A stretch of DNA of 44,475 nt from Prevotella sp. (GTDB lineage Bacteria > Bacteroidota > Bacteroidia > Bacteroidales > Bacteroidaceae), in contig JAGCZA010000117.1 in the NCBI GenBank assembly GCA_017960525.1, positions 1-44,475 of the forward strand. Reading direction: 5' to 3'. The notes beneath the pieces were generated by a model that did no database searches, was not told the origin of the DNA, and worked only from the letters and a program-made list of their open reading frames with translations. Within the stretch, counting starts at the first letter, position 1. The number at the start of each line of letters is the position of its first letter. Below are positions 27,041 to 32,008 of this stretch, in pieces. Position numbers and translations under genes: made by a program.

Positions 27041-28197
27041 AAGCAAATTATAAATAATTTCCAAAAATGGAGAAAGATATTAAATAAGAAGATGAATAAA
27101 TGAAAGAGATTAAAAATAATAACAAGTTACTTGGTTTGCCTGACGGATATGACATTTGGTGCAAAGAGATGATATCATTGATTGAGACTGCAAAATATAA
27201 CGCAGCACTCAACGTCAATACAGAGTTGTTGGCTTTGTATTGGAAGATAGGTTCCGATATTATCAAGAAGCAGGAAGAACAAGGTTGGGGTACACAGGTT
27301 GTAGAACAGTTGTCAAAAGATCTTTCGGCTCGTTTTCCTGATGACAGGGGTTTTTCCTCTCGTAATTTGTGGAACATGAAAAGGTTTGCCAATGCCTATC
27401 CACTTTTTCCAATTCTGCAAGTCCCACTTGCAGAAATTCGAGAAAGGCCAATTTTGCAAGTGGCACTTGCAGAATTTATTGAGGAAAGCAAAGGCATTGT
27501 GCAAGTGCCACTTGCACAAATCACTTGGTATCACCATATATCTCTTTTACCTAAAGTAAAGAATATTGCTGAAAGGGCATTCTACATCATGGCAACAGCA
27601 CACGAAGGCTGGAGCCGCGATGTGATGCTCATGCAGATTGCCAATGGATATATCAATGCAAAAGGCCATTCCGTTAACAATTTTGACAGAACATTGCCAC
27701 CGATACAAAGTGACTTGGCACGATATACCTTCAAGGATCCATATAATTTCAGTTTTCTGGGGACAGTTGCTTTGCAGAATGAACTTGATATAGAAAAGAA
27801 ACTGGCAGAAAGGATTACGGATTTCCTGCTCGAAATGGGGCGTGGCTTTTCTTTTGTTGGCCGTCAATACCATCTTACCGTAGATGGCGATGACTATTAC
27901 ATAGACATTCTAATGTACCACTTGAAATTGCATTGTTATGTAGTGGTCGAGTTGAAAGCGGTTGAGTTCATCCCTGAGTTTGTCAGCAAACTGAATTTCT
28001 ATATATCAGCCGTTGATGAATATGTGAAATCACCAGAAGACAAGCCCACCATAGGACTTCTACTTTGTCGTACCAAGAGCAACACCAAGGCACGTTTCGC
28101 ACTGCGAGGCATTACTCAGTTCACCACGCTGGCCCCCACGAGCGAAACGGGAAATAACATTTTTCATCCCTGCGCTACAAATTCGCCTGAAAATAGT

Positions 28198-28205
28198 TAC
28201 CTTTG
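28198..28205 (+). promoter_or_regulatory. -7 box (TACCTTTG) inside the IS110 left end
   Basis: TACCTTTG is a host-type -7 element 78 bases into the element. Transcription would start near 28211 and cover the candidate bridge RNA and then the transposase. The same 16 bases TACCTTTGCATCGGCA occur on the minus strand at 43262-43277. Confidence 0.5.
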
Positions 28206-28210
28206 CATCG

Positions 28211-28363
28211 GCAAGTAAGTAGGCCATAGAATGCAATGGACTTCCGAGTCCAATACTCAGTTTGGTTCCGTCTGCTCGTAGAGTGATAATTGGTCGTTGG
28301 AGACCTTATAGGAGACTACACATTTTTAGGAGCATCGGACTTGCCGTTTCAAAATTATTCAAT
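28211..28363 (+). ncRNA. Candidate bridge RNA of the IS110 element
   Basis: The region between the internal promoter and the transposase has a perfect hairpin (TGGACT TCCG AGTCCA, 28237-28252). Directly after it comes ACTCAG (28255-28260), the same six bases that end the target-site left flank (28114-28119). TATAGGAG (28307-28314) is identical to the last eight bases of the element (29735-29742). CAATGG-A-CT (28234-28242) is complementary, with one extra base, to the target right flank AG-CCATTG. Matches to both target and donor ends in one short transcript are what a bridge RNA needs. The fold and loop boundaries are not established. Confidence 0.6.
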
Positions 28364-29725
28364 ATGGCACGTAAGGCAGAAAAAGAAAGGACGAAGGATG
28401 GCTTGAAACTGAAGATAGTCAATCCTAATGCTGCAGGCATAGACATCGCCTATGGTGAAATGCAGGTCTGCGTACCCGAGGACCGTGATGGTGAGAACAA
28501 CCGTTGTTTCGGCAGTTTCACATGCGACTATGAGGAGATTGCCTCCTGGCTCAAGGCCTGCGGCATCACCACCGTGGCGATGGAGTCAACCGGCTCCTAC
28601 TGGGTGGGGCTGTACTTCTTCCTTGAGGAGAAGGGGTTTGATGTTCTGCTTGCCAATGCGAAGGACGTGAAGAACGTTTCTGGCAAGAAGACGGACGAGG
28701 CGGATGCCGAGTGGATAATGCTTATGCACAGCTACGGCTTGCTGAAGCCGAGCTTCCATCCCGATGCCGCCGCCCGCAATATCCGTGAGCTTGCCCGCCA
28801 TCGTGACAACATGCTCCGCAGTGCAGGCAAGGAAGTTCAGCACATGCAGAAGTCGCTTGTGCTAATGAACATTAAGGTTGATACCGTTATCAGCGACATT
28901 CTCGGCAAGTCAGGGAAAGCCATCATTGAAGCCATACTGGAGGGTAACCATGACCCGAAGTCGCTTGCCCAGTTGGCAGACCGGCGCTGCAAGGCCAGCA
29001 AGGAAACAATAGAGAAGTCACTTGAAGGCACCTGGGATGCCGTACACCTGTTTGAACTGAAGCAGTCATACGACCTGTACAAGTACATCCATACGCAGAT
29101 TGCAGACTGTGAGGCAGAGATGGACAGAATGCTGAGCAACTATACGGACGGATGCGGCACGGACATGACAGGGTACAAGGCGACAGAGAAGCGTGTGGCA
29201 AAGAAGAACGCCATATCGTTTGATGCGGAAAAGCACGCTTTCTCCATGTGGGGCGTGAATGCGATGGAGATGCCTGGCATGAGCCTCGGAGGACTATCCG
29301 TCCTTATGGGTGAACTCGGGAGCGGCTTCATAGAGAAATTCCCGTCGGCAAAGAGTTTCTGTAGATGGTGCAACCTCGTTCCGAACAATAAAATATCCGG
29401 CGGCAAACTGCTGTCGAGCAAGGTGCCCAAGCTGAAAAACAGGGTTGGACAAGTGTTCAGGTCGTGTGCCAACTCGGTGAAGAGTGCCAAGACTGGCCTT
29501 GGCGTTTATTTCCGCAGGCAGAAGTCAAAAGGCGGGCATCTTCAGGCCATTGTCGCCACAGCGAACAAAATGGCGAGAATATTTTACACCATGGTTGTTA
29601 ACAAAAAGCCATTCGACGAGAGCAAGGTCGGACTTGATGAAAAGACCTTGTTGCAAAGAAAAATCACAATAGCCCAAAGAAGCCTTGAAAAGCTAAATCT
29701 CAGGCTCTCTGTAGCGCAGGGATGA
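28364..29725 (+). CDS. IS110-family transposase
   Basis: The ATG at 28364 gives 453 residues beginning MARKAEKER. Longer frames upstream run through the non-coding left end. The RuvC-like DEDD domain is at the N-terminus: Asp27 in NAAGIDIAYGE, Glu in TVAMESTGSYW, and the Asp pair in KKTDEADAEW. A coiled helical linker follows (about 160-290). The C-terminal transposase_20 domain has the IS110 motif EMPGMSLGGLSVLMGELGSG, LCRW-type FCRWCNLVPNN, and GGKLLSSKVPK with the likely catalytic Ser. These recombinases act with a bridge RNA to join element and target without long duplications. Confidence 0.93.
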   Translation: MARKAEKERTKDGLKLKIVNPNAAGIDIAYGEMQVCVPEDRDGENNRCFGSFTCDYEEIASWLKACGITTVAMESTGSYWVGLYFFLEEKGFDVLLANAKDVKNVSGKKTDEADAEWIMLMHSYGLLKPSFHPDAAARNIRELARHRDNMLRSAGKEVQHMQKSLVLMNIKVDTVISDILGKSGKAIIEAILEGNHDPKSLAQLADRRCKASKETIEKSLEGTWDAVHLFELKQSYDLYKYIHTQIADCEAEMDRMLSNYTDGCGTDMTGYKATEKRVAKKNAISFDAEKHAFSMWGVNAMEMPGMSLGGLSVLMGELGSGFIEKFPSAKSFCRWCNLVPNNKISGGKLLSSKVPKLKNRVGQVFRSCANSVKSAKTGLGVYFRRQKSKGGHLQAIVATANKMARIFYTMVVNKKPFDESKVGLDEKTLLQRKITIAQRSLEKLNLRLSVAQG

Positions 29726-29858
29726 TAAATGTTATATAGGAGCCATTGGGTATAGCACAATATGAGACAGAAAAACTATTTGCAGATGTGGCTTCTGCCT
29801 TACCACAAATCGAGAACCTAGAAAAAGCATTAGAAAAAGAAAACGAGAAAACAGAAAA

Positions 29859-30130
29859 ATGAACGCACGACACATATTAGGCATATCAGGAGGCAAGGAC
29901 AGTACAGCACTCGCCATCTATCTGAAGCAGAAATTCCCGACGTCTAAAATCGTGTACTATAACTCTGATACGAAATGCTAATTGGCCGAAACAGAGGAAC
30001 TGATAAAACGTTTGGAAGCCTATCTGGGAGAAATCAAACGGCTGTAGACTAACGAGCAATTCCTTTTGGAAAGCCAAAAAAAACAAACCAGAACAATAAT
30101 TAGAAATAAAAAAACTATTTTTAATAAATT
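29859..30130 (+). pseudogene. PAPS-reductase-family (DndC-like) gene remnant
   Basis: The ATG at 29859 overlaps the nuclease stop (ATGA). The frame gives MNARHILGISGGKDSTALAI with the SGGKDS PP-loop of the PAPS reductase/ATP-pyrophosphatase family. It hits TAA at 29979-29981 and TAG at 30045-30047, while the sequence between still resembles the family (LAETEELIKRLEAYLGEI). The remaining two thirds of the gene are absent, and the helicase begins at 30131. Family members include DNA phosphorothioation and other defence enzymes as well as sulfur-assimilation enzymes. The neighbours favour defence. Confidence 0.7.
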
Positions 30131-32008
30131 ATGGAAATTGGAAGACTGAAAGAATTCAATAAAACAGACAAAGGACTGAGACCATATCAAAGAGACAATA
30201 AAGATAAGGTGTATGATGTTTGGCAGACACATCAATCAGTTATGCTACAAATGCCGACAGGCACAGGAAAAACGCGTACTTTTGTTTCCATCATAAAAGA
30301 CATTCATTATTATAGTGAAGAGGCAAGACGTGCTTATAAGGTCCTTATTTTAGTCCATCGGAAAGAATTAGTAGATCAGATTGATGAAGAACTCGGCTAT
30401 CGTTATGCTTTGGCACATGGTATTATACAGTCAGGTGACAGAGAAAGAAAAAAGTATCCTATACAAATTGCATCTGTTCAAACATTGAACAGACGCTTGG
30501 ACAACTGGACAGACAAGGACTTTGACTTTATTATCATTGACGAAGCACACCACACTACAGCGGAAAGCTATCAAAAAATCATCAAATCCTTTCCAAATGC
30601 CAAACTTCTTGGTGTTACAGCAACTCCTTGTAGACTCAATGGAGAAGGTTTTACGGGAACATTTGATAAACTTATCGTATCTCCACATATAGGATGGTTT
30701 ATTGAAAAGGGTTATCTTTGTGATTGCGACTACTATTCTGTTCCAAAATATTCCTTTATACAAAGACAAATTGATGGAATAACAAGATTCTGCAATGGCG
30801 ACTATGCAGAACAAGAAATGGAGAGAATCTGCGATAATGATCGAATAAGAGCACAGGTAGTAGATACCTATCTACAATATGCAAAGGGTAAAAAGGGCGT
30901 GGTTTATACGATTAACAAAATTCACAACAAAAACCTATGCGATAAATTTATCTCACATGGTATTAATGCAGTAGCTTTAGACTGTGACACTCCAGGAGAA
31001 ATTAGAGATGAGTGTATTGATAAATTCAAAAGAGGTAAAATTCAGATTATATGTAATGTCAATCTTTTCACAGAAGGTTTTGACTGTCCTGATATTGAGT
31101 TTGTTCAGTTGGCCCGTCCTACAAAATCGCTGGCACTTTATCTTCAACAGGTAGGAAGAGGATTGAGAATTTCCGAAAATAAGGAAAAAGTGTTGATTCT
31201 TGACAATGTTGGTCTCTACAACAAATTTGGTCTACCTAAATCCCGTAGACAATGGAACAAATATTTTGAGGGGAAGTTCGATATAGATGAGGCAGATGTG
31301 CATAAAGACAAAAAAGTGCTAATTAGCAATAAGACTCCTGTTAATCGCACTCGACAGCAGAACTTTGAAGAAGGACACGAAGAGGTGTTTCTAATATTTT
31401 CATCTGACGAAAAATCATATATTGAGGCAAGAGCAGATGAATTTTGGTCGATATTAGAAGATTTCTACACATATATTGTAAACTCTATTGCAATGGAGTT
31501 CATAAAAGATTATGGTGGAACTGGATTGTCATTAACTATTGGGGCTGATGCTGGATATAAAATATATAATGTAGGCATCCAACATCATACCGATGCTTTA
31601 GAGGAAATACTTTATAAGACCCAATTCAAGTTTAAAGACTCACCAAGTGGAAAGTTGGTGATACGTACTGCAAAAGATTATGACGAATTGATAATGAAAA
31701 TAGAAGATGATATTTGGGAAAAAATTGATAGAAAGGATGCAAAATACTGGGAAAGACTTATTGTTGGAATGGAACTTTTAGAGGAAGAGGTGTCTCAAAT
31801 CATTCCTATCATAAATAAAAGAAATTTTTCTCATATTATCTGTGATGATTGTATTATTGAGAAAGATGTAAGTCCCAAGGCATTGCTGACGTGTTTTTGG
31901 AATTTGTTTCTTAAATCTAATATCTTTCGCTATTTTATAGATTTAGGCATTGTAGATTATCTTTCAGGAATGGATATAAAACAGATATTCAGTAATCTAA
32001 ATAAATGA
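30131..32008 (+). CDS. SF2 DEAD/DEAH-box helicase of an AT-rich accessory island
   Basis: This encodes 625 residues. The helicase core has motif I MPTGTGKT (about 41-48), motif II IIIDEAHH, motif III GVTATP, IV-V regions including CNVNLFTEGFDCPDIEFVQL, and motif VI QQVGRGLRI, as in type III restriction-like helicases. About 220 residues follow the core without a recognised domain. It lacks a methyltransferase or nuclease fusion. Codon use is AT-rich compared with the housekeeping genes on both sides, which suggests transfer. It follows the nuclease and PAPS-reductase remnants, so it may be the only intact gene of a former defence operon. Confidence 0.85.
   Translation: MEIGRLKEFNKTDKGLRPYQRDNKDKVYDVWQTHQSVMLQMPTGTGKTRTFVSIIKDIHYYSEEARRAYKVLILVHRKELVDQIDEELGYRYALAHGIIQSGDRERKKYPIQIASVQTLNRRLDNWTDKDFDFIIIDEAHHTTAESYQKIIKSFPNAKLLGVTATPCRLNGEGFTGTFDKLIVSPHIGWFIEKGYLCDCDYYSVPKYSFIQRQIDGITRFCNGDYAEQEMERICDNDRIRAQVVDTYLQYAKGKKGVVYTINKIHNKNLCDKFISHGINAVALDCDTPGEIRDECIDKFKRGKIQIICNVNLFTEGFDCPDIEFVQLARPTKSLALYLQQVGRGLRISENKEKVLILDNVGLYNKFGLPKSRRQWNKYFEGKFDIDEADVHKDKKVLISNKTPVNRTRQQNFEEGHEEVFLIFSSDEKSYIEARADEFWSILEDFYTYIVNSIAMEFIKDYGGTGLSLTIGADAGYKIYNVGIQHHTDALEEILYKTQFKFKDSPSGKLVIRTAKDYDELIMKIEDDIWEKIDRKDAKYWERLIVGMELLEEEVSQIIPIINKRNFSHIICDDCIIEKDVSPKALLTCFWNLFLKSNIFRYFIDLGIVDYLSGMDIKQIFSNLNK

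Follow-up and report, generated by a model that had tools for sequence, protein, structure and literature searches.

Predicted bridge RNA with mirror-image guide order in a long-transposase IS110-family insertion sequence of Prevotella sp.

How does an insertion sequence with an RNA-like left end choose its target, and on which sides of that RNA do its guides lie? The question is raised by an IS110-family element in a 44,475-nucleotide stretch of Prevotella sp. DNA (assembly GCA_017960525.1, contig JAGCZA010000117.1), hereafter the window; position numbers are those of the whole window, and the features described lie on its plus strand. The element interrupts a YhcG/DUF1016 (PDDEXK) nuclease gene (Pfam PF17761 and PF06250), whose 5′ part (27100-28119) ends in ATTACTC-AG, the left target half, and whose 3′ remainder (29743-29862) begins with CCATTGGG, the right target half. 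The reading frame runs to 28119 and is picked up again at 29743. Alignment with one intact homologue, WP_218456569.1 from a Segatella hominis plasmid (locus L078), the closest among the homologues compared, gives ATTACTC-AG-CCATTGGG as the native target. As this homologue crosses the junction gap-free, the ends are fixed precisely up to the AG core (28118-28119 on the left, 29741-29742 on the right): the element occupies 28120-29742, with one AG core per side and no target duplication beyond the core. The definable ends claimed in a preliminary description of this DNA are thus confirmed.

Comparison with relatives makes it highly probable that the element is an RNA-guided insertion sequence of a long-transposase IS110 subgroup, the bridge-RNA guides of which are arranged mirror-wise relative to those of IS621. 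The left-target guide ATACTCAG (28253-28260) lies on the 3′ side of the target loop (loop 1). With assigned segments, 104 of 126 positions on this side of the loop agree with the left flank, against a permuted mean of 49.6; the five bases nearest AG match completely in 18 of 21 insertions, and the result still stands at p=0.00005 on the 15 unique guide-flank combinations. A blind scan of all RNA columns revealed columns 53-59 as the best for the left target, and flank and RNA segment vary together among the relatives, e.g., TTCCGAG, TTTGCAG, GTTTAG, and TAGGAG. The contig of L043 starts within the element, leaving no left flank visible, L042 offers only 8 bases of left flank, and 11 were used for L020; L050, L054, L047, and L092 are included in this guide-flank test and stand outside the 23-row RNA alignment described below. 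The covariation strongly suggests a left-target guide of 7-8 nucleotides, AG included, on the 3′ side of the target loop. The left-donor guide TATAGGAG (28307-28314) likewise lies on the 3′ side, here of the donor loop, and matches the left donor at the right end of the element (29735-29742, including the right AG core). In the relatives, the donor segment and each element's own right end agree at 131 of 132 positions (permuted mean 106.9), with L008, L013, L016, L018, and L019 lacking a right end, and the blind scan was best at columns 107-114. Chance does not account for ACTCAG and TATAGGAG, since each varies in step with its matching flank or end, and the proposal of ACTCAG as a left-target guide therefore holds. 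In an IS621 copy, the 9-nucleotide guide ATCGGGCCT agrees with the left flank ATCAGGCCT at 8 of 9 positions by eye, and the IS621 left-target guide is placed 5′ in its loop (PMC11208160, PMC11208158). The suspicion that the guide order is swapped relative to IS621 is thereby borne out for the target loop and, as regards the left donor, for the donor loop.

The RNA that would carry these guides is predicted at 28207-28350, with a length of about 140 nucleotides, two internal loops, and a closing stem that joins its two ends. This 8-bp stem, absent from the preliminary description, encloses the whole RNA by pairing CGGCAAGT (28209-28216) with ACTTGCCG (28339-28346); seven of its pairs were modelled, and all seven show two-sided changes. 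The donor loop (28278-28319) is delimited by an outer stem, GTAG/CTAC, and an inner hairpin, GGTC/GACC, according to consensus and covariation. The window RNA folds with a z of -2.35, and 5 of 200 shuffles fold equally well. In the common structure of 23 aligned relatives, 95.6% of the cells are paired (86.2% when shuffled) and two-sided changes occur at 18 of 28 pairs (9.6 when shuffled); none of 500 shuffles reaches either value, and sliding the structure by one column lowers the pairing to about 45%. AG is invariant in both 3′-side guides in all 23 RNAs. An RNA model built from this alignment matches the window at 2.1e-28, the window belonging to the training set of the model, and a search of the window against Rfam at the gathering score matched 0 families. 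The bridge-RNA-like left end, for which a conserved two-loop fold had been proposed as the check, is therefore supported. Immediately 5′ of the RNA lies a -7 promoter box, TACCTTTG (28198-28205). The motif TAnnTTTG, which we take to be the Bacteroidota-type -7 promoter consensus, is found from 25 nucleotides before to 6 nucleotides after the RNA start in 19 of the 23 relatives, against 0.26 expected by shuffling. A host-type promoter had been noticed here before, and the bridge RNA is probably transcribed from it, within the left end. One relative, L047 (genome G690), apparently has an RNA that lacks the closing stem and, in its target loop, the standard 5′ side.

The rule was also applied to eight held-out elements. 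The RNA model matches a Cytophagales plasmid element (L154, E-value 1.4e-6) and L080 (0.00024) and, weakly, L160 (0.0038), an element on a Nostoc plasmid, and L079 (0.018). Five of the eight, L160 among them, have the exact left-target 7-mer upstream, compared with 1 of 54 swapped guides (Fisher 5e-5). Three of these five have transposases that are 37-40% identical, and the exact match of L079 falls in a simple repeat. In L154, with a 41% identical transposase, the left match is 6/7. The right target was tested in the five held-out elements with a readable right end, where the chosen register fits at 10 of 20 positions against a mean of 6.8 (3.3% of permutations). This register, the best of six, comes from the guide-flank test: when the 5′ side of loop 1 is reverse-complemented and set against the first four bases of the right flank, 37 of 84 positions agree (mean 21.9, p=0.0004). 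The right-target blind scan, from which L052 was left out for its odd right flank although it was kept in the guide-flank test, was best at columns 28-31 as complement. These columns fall within AGAATG-C (28228-28234), and the right-target guide appears to be this variable 5′ side of loop 1, which matches poorly in the window copy. Four further registers and all six same-strand controls were not significant. By eye, the window loop segment GAATGC is a same-sense match to a repeat, CGAATGC; this candidate was dropped, the same-strand control registers being not significant.

Several observations weigh against this reading. The right-target signal is modest, and the neighbouring register also scores, both in the guide-flank test (p=0.019) and in the held-out elements (10/20 against 5.8, 5.0% of permutations); the best single held-out case, L154, fits that neighbouring register (TTAG, 4/4). 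The AGAATG-C of the window fits only two of the first four bases of its right flank, and L049, L050, and L054, copies of one element, differ in their right flanks despite sharing their target-loop segments. Perhaps the left half-site alone sufficed when the window copy landed, or the guide of this copy may have drifted since. On the left side, the guide match is imperfect in L020 (3/5) and in L047 and L092 (4/5), and the guide-flank permutations ignore relatedness. The held-out guides were picked out from the RNAs while the flanks were visible, and, owing to the low sequence complexity of these guides, 10-33% of their shuffled versions perform equally well in each held-out element. No convincing left-guide match is seen in L023 and L031, two broken copies that were retained in the count of eight. 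Three members of the window's transposase clade, L155, L156, and L081, gave no hit with the RNA model, and further pair types number 34 against 33.4 in shuffles, without excess. Of the donor guides suggested in the preliminary description, TATAGGAG stands as the left one, whereas the blind scan of RNA columns resolved no right-donor guide: many columns score, probably through a common ancestry of RNA and ends that confounds the scan. The 5′ side of the donor loop was considered as a place for such a guide and set aside, as no consistent pairing was seen by eye.

Other explanations of the same matches can be weighed against this evidence. The preliminary description assigned the role of right-target guide to CAATGG-A-CT, and CAATGG (28234-28239) is indeed an exact 6-base complement of CCATTG, the window right flank adjoining the core. 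However, 13 of the 23 aligned relatives carry CAATGG, and among the nine carriers with a known right flank only the window has CCATTG; the TGG columns belong to the inner stem, being paired in 22 or 23 of the 23 sequences. Among the guide segments proposed earlier, CAATGG alone is thus kept in relatives at unrelated right flanks. It is better described as a loop end plus inner stem, and its assignment as a guide, which was rejected, is scarcely credible. Alternatively, the guide order would not be mirrored at all if the RNA were read from the minus strand, or if an ordinary IS110 element were viewed from the wrong end. The reverse complement could form a similar fold, but the -7 box precedes the RNA on the plus strand in most relatives, and G-U cells outnumber A-C cells by 40:9 in the plus-strand structure, which was itself predicted on that strand. 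The plus-strand target and left-donor guides also end 3′ at the core, as in the published IS621 scheme, which minus-strand guides would not. This alternative is very unlikely. The flank matches might also not be guides, if the target were picked by the transposase protein or by a hot spot of host repeats and the RNA merely resembled it. Most of the closest relatives do share a left-flank 12-mer, GTAACTAYTCAG, which is longer than the guide and belongs to interspersed repeats in one host. Against this, flank and RNA segment change together in other relatives, and the rule finds held-out flanks, including those of three elements with 37-40% identical transposases; a target choice without guides is therefore highly improbable.

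Descent bears on how the element should be filed. Its transposase/recombinase of 453 amino acids (28364-29725, start ATG at 28364; PF01548 1.4e-21, PF02371 8.2e-6, NCBIfam NF033542 5.2e-65) has both domains of the IS110 family, a DEDD (RuvC-like) N-terminal domain and a Transposase_20 C-terminal domain. Its alignments to IS621 and ISCro4 are weak, and it is 20% identical to IS4321 over 372 columns (E-value 7e-4). In a tree of 26 sequences, the window clade groups with other IS110-family transposases of 444-495 amino acids (19 rows, support 89/96), apart from IS621 and IS4321. The 2024 papers describe the IS110 group as having an upstream RNA, no or a very short subterminal repeat, a CT core, and a bottom-strand guide 5′ of a top-strand guide (PMC11208160, PMC11208158, PMC11187229). 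The present element shares with this group the long non-coding region with its RNA upstream of the gene. It departs from the group by a subterminal inverted repeat of 26 nucleotides, by AG, in the window and in the guides of the 23-row alignment, in place of CT along the transposase strand, and by its guide order, in which the bottom-strand (left-target) guide is 3′, with a strong signal, and the top-strand guide 5′, with a modest one. With the IS1111 group it has in common the subterminal inverted repeats and a top-strand guide 5′ of the bottom-strand guide, the left-target part of this order being strong and the right-target part modest; it differs in having its RNA upstream instead of downstream of the gene and in the length of its transposase, those of the IS1111 group having 330-350 amino acids and being related to IS1111 over their full length. 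The long repeat and the guide order would suit a true IS1111-group element by descent whose RNA had moved upstream, as in the exception ISMtsp17 (PMC11187229). Such a descent is unlikely given the length of the transposase, its low identity to IS4321, and its branching with the long transposases, although the separation from IS1111 in the tree is weak, as it depends on a single IS1111 representative, IS4321, with a branch length of 5.16. IS1111 descent would be compatible with the favoured mirror-wise mechanism and concerns the filing only. On its sequence, the element is filed in the IS110 family within a subgroup with transposases of about 450 amino acids, and not as a canonical member of the IS110 group or of the IS1111 group.

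Target preferences among the relatives place the window copy in context. The guide-flank test includes six insertions of its subclade; five of them have GTAACTAYTCAG as their left flank, and the sixth is that of the window. GTAACTAYTCAG is absent from the window's genome, and the window copy thus sits at a site unusual for its subclade. The 12-mer occurs 25 times in Hallella mizrahii (genome G1082; 0 times for a reversed-pattern control), and part of these copies sit in interspersed repeats, of which it forms the outer part, with inverted copies about 310 bp apart (e.g., L143 and L149). In another set of relatives, L049, L050, L054, and L056 insert directly after TTTGCAG; all four left flanks hold TAnnTTTG, a -7-type promoter box, and their right flanks are unlike. 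Hallella mizrahii also contains 11 end-only elements at GTAACTAYTCAG sites (L122, L127, L134, L137, L138, L140, L141, L142, L145, L146, and L148). They are 60-66 bp long, nine being exactly 61 bp, and consist of a left end joined to the right end of an L052-type element. These were sought solely in loci fetched for GTAACTAYTCAG, so that the left flank is given by the search; the right flank starts with CGAAT or CGAT in 8 of the 11. A resident element, L009, has a donor guide identical to their right end, TATAGAAG (TATAGAA in L134), which makes movement in trans plausible, and these derivatives are probably natural mini-donors. At L103/L052 (genome G481), an inverted second left-end-like sequence ending in CTGAATAGT lies to the right of the element, as if it had two left ends.

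The remaining features of the window concern its termini and surroundings. The subterminal inverted repeat, which the preliminary description did not include, has its left arm at 28154-28179 and its right arm at 29710-29735, 7 nucleotides from the right end; 25 of 26 positions (96%) are complementary. In the other 13 of the 14 elements scored by a crude ungapped rule, the repeat measures 5-17 nucleotides. Outside the left arm lies a left-end extension of 34 nucleotides (28120-28153), and such extensions measure 30-36 nucleotides in 17 of 20 elements. A left-end hairpin is often predicted, yet it surpasses shuffled sequences at the level of 5% or less in just 3 of 20 elements and is not claimed as conserved. 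The element is the sole full copy in its own assembly (94% complete, 146 contigs). Another contig of the same genome holds a 175-base right-end remnant of a related element (L002, G000:C39:1453-1627), which is 85% identical and terminates in TATAGGAC, not TATAGGAG. Beyond the broken nuclease, a short, stop-interrupted open stretch at 29859-29981, ISGGKDSTALAIYL, resembles the start of a PAPS-reductase-family gene and is matched in part by a gene with that annotation on a Hymenobacter plasmid. It sits between the nuclease remainder and a ResIII-type helicase at 30131 (PF04851); these surroundings are perhaps the remains of a defence island.

Among viral contigs, three pattern stretches were found, none of them a relative, and a phage search with the RNA region alone (28180-28420) found none. 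A plasmid DNA search with the element gave two short pieces from Rhizobiales plasmids, and repeating the genus search around another centre yielded no new matching genome. In genomes G257 and G261, distant multi-copy elements differ in their ends and could not be fitted into the guide scheme. No work on this clade was found in a literature search that left subscription journals and bioRxiv largely outside its scope; PMC13174815 does no more than cite the field.

Under the proposed mechanism, the element would be excised as a circle joining ...TATAGG-AG-TTCACC... The bridge RNA would pair with this circle and with the target, and strands would be exchanged at AG. For the pairing, the 5′ side of its target loop would present the right-target guide (modest signal), the 3′ side of that loop the left-target guide (strong signal), and the 3′ side of its donor loop the left-donor guide. 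As the AG core is the CT of IS621 on the other strand, the layout fits a cassette of RNA plus transposase that is inverted relative to the recombining ends. This is the simplest reading, an inference from the layout. More broadly, we lean somewhat towards the view that a clade of long-transposase IS110 elements, from Prevotella-type bacteria to Cytophagales and cyanobacteria, shares a mirror-image bridge RNA, an inverted cassette, an AG core, and targeting dominated by the left half-site, as a third arrangement beside IS110 and IS1111, with end-only derivatives of 60-66 bp that presumably moved in trans to at least 11 sites in Hallella mizrahii. Such a clade would break the IS110/IS1111 split because an IS110-type upstream RNA and a long transposase go with the IS1111 guide order. 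If this is true, guide polarity, RNA position, and repeat length evolve independently of one another, the CT or AG core tells which end is which, and designers of bridge-RNA tools and predictors of IS110 targets must set the polarity for each clade. The element thus suggests that RNA-programmed DNA insertion of the bridge-RNA kind comes in a mirror-image layout.

Comparison with known systems delineates this layout. Like IS621, the element has a DEDD recombinase, an RNA upstream of the gene with two internal loops, guides that end at a two-base core, and no target duplication beyond the core (PMC11208160, PMC11208158). Unlike IS621, it has its target-loop guides and its left-donor guide on the opposite loop sides, AG instead of CT as the core, a transposase of 453 instead of 326 amino acids, and a 26-nucleotide subterminal repeat; its promoter-like box lies inside the left end, whereas the IS621 promoter arises at the junction of right and left ends. 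ISEc21, an IS110-family element, also yields an RNA from its upstream non-coding region, but with a guide order opposite to that of the window element (PMC11187229). The same paper reports that guide order is reversed between IS1111 and IS110 members, on the basis of four IS1111 elements and one IS110 element. The seekRNA elements ISEc11, ISPa11, and ISKpn4 of the IS1111 group resemble the window element in their subterminal inverted repeats and in a top-strand match 5′ of the bottom-strand match, and differ from it in that their RNA usually lies downstream of a transposase of 330-350 amino acids (PMC11187229), whereas here it lies upstream of one of 453; the left repeat of the window element, moreover, is set 34 nucleotides in from its end.

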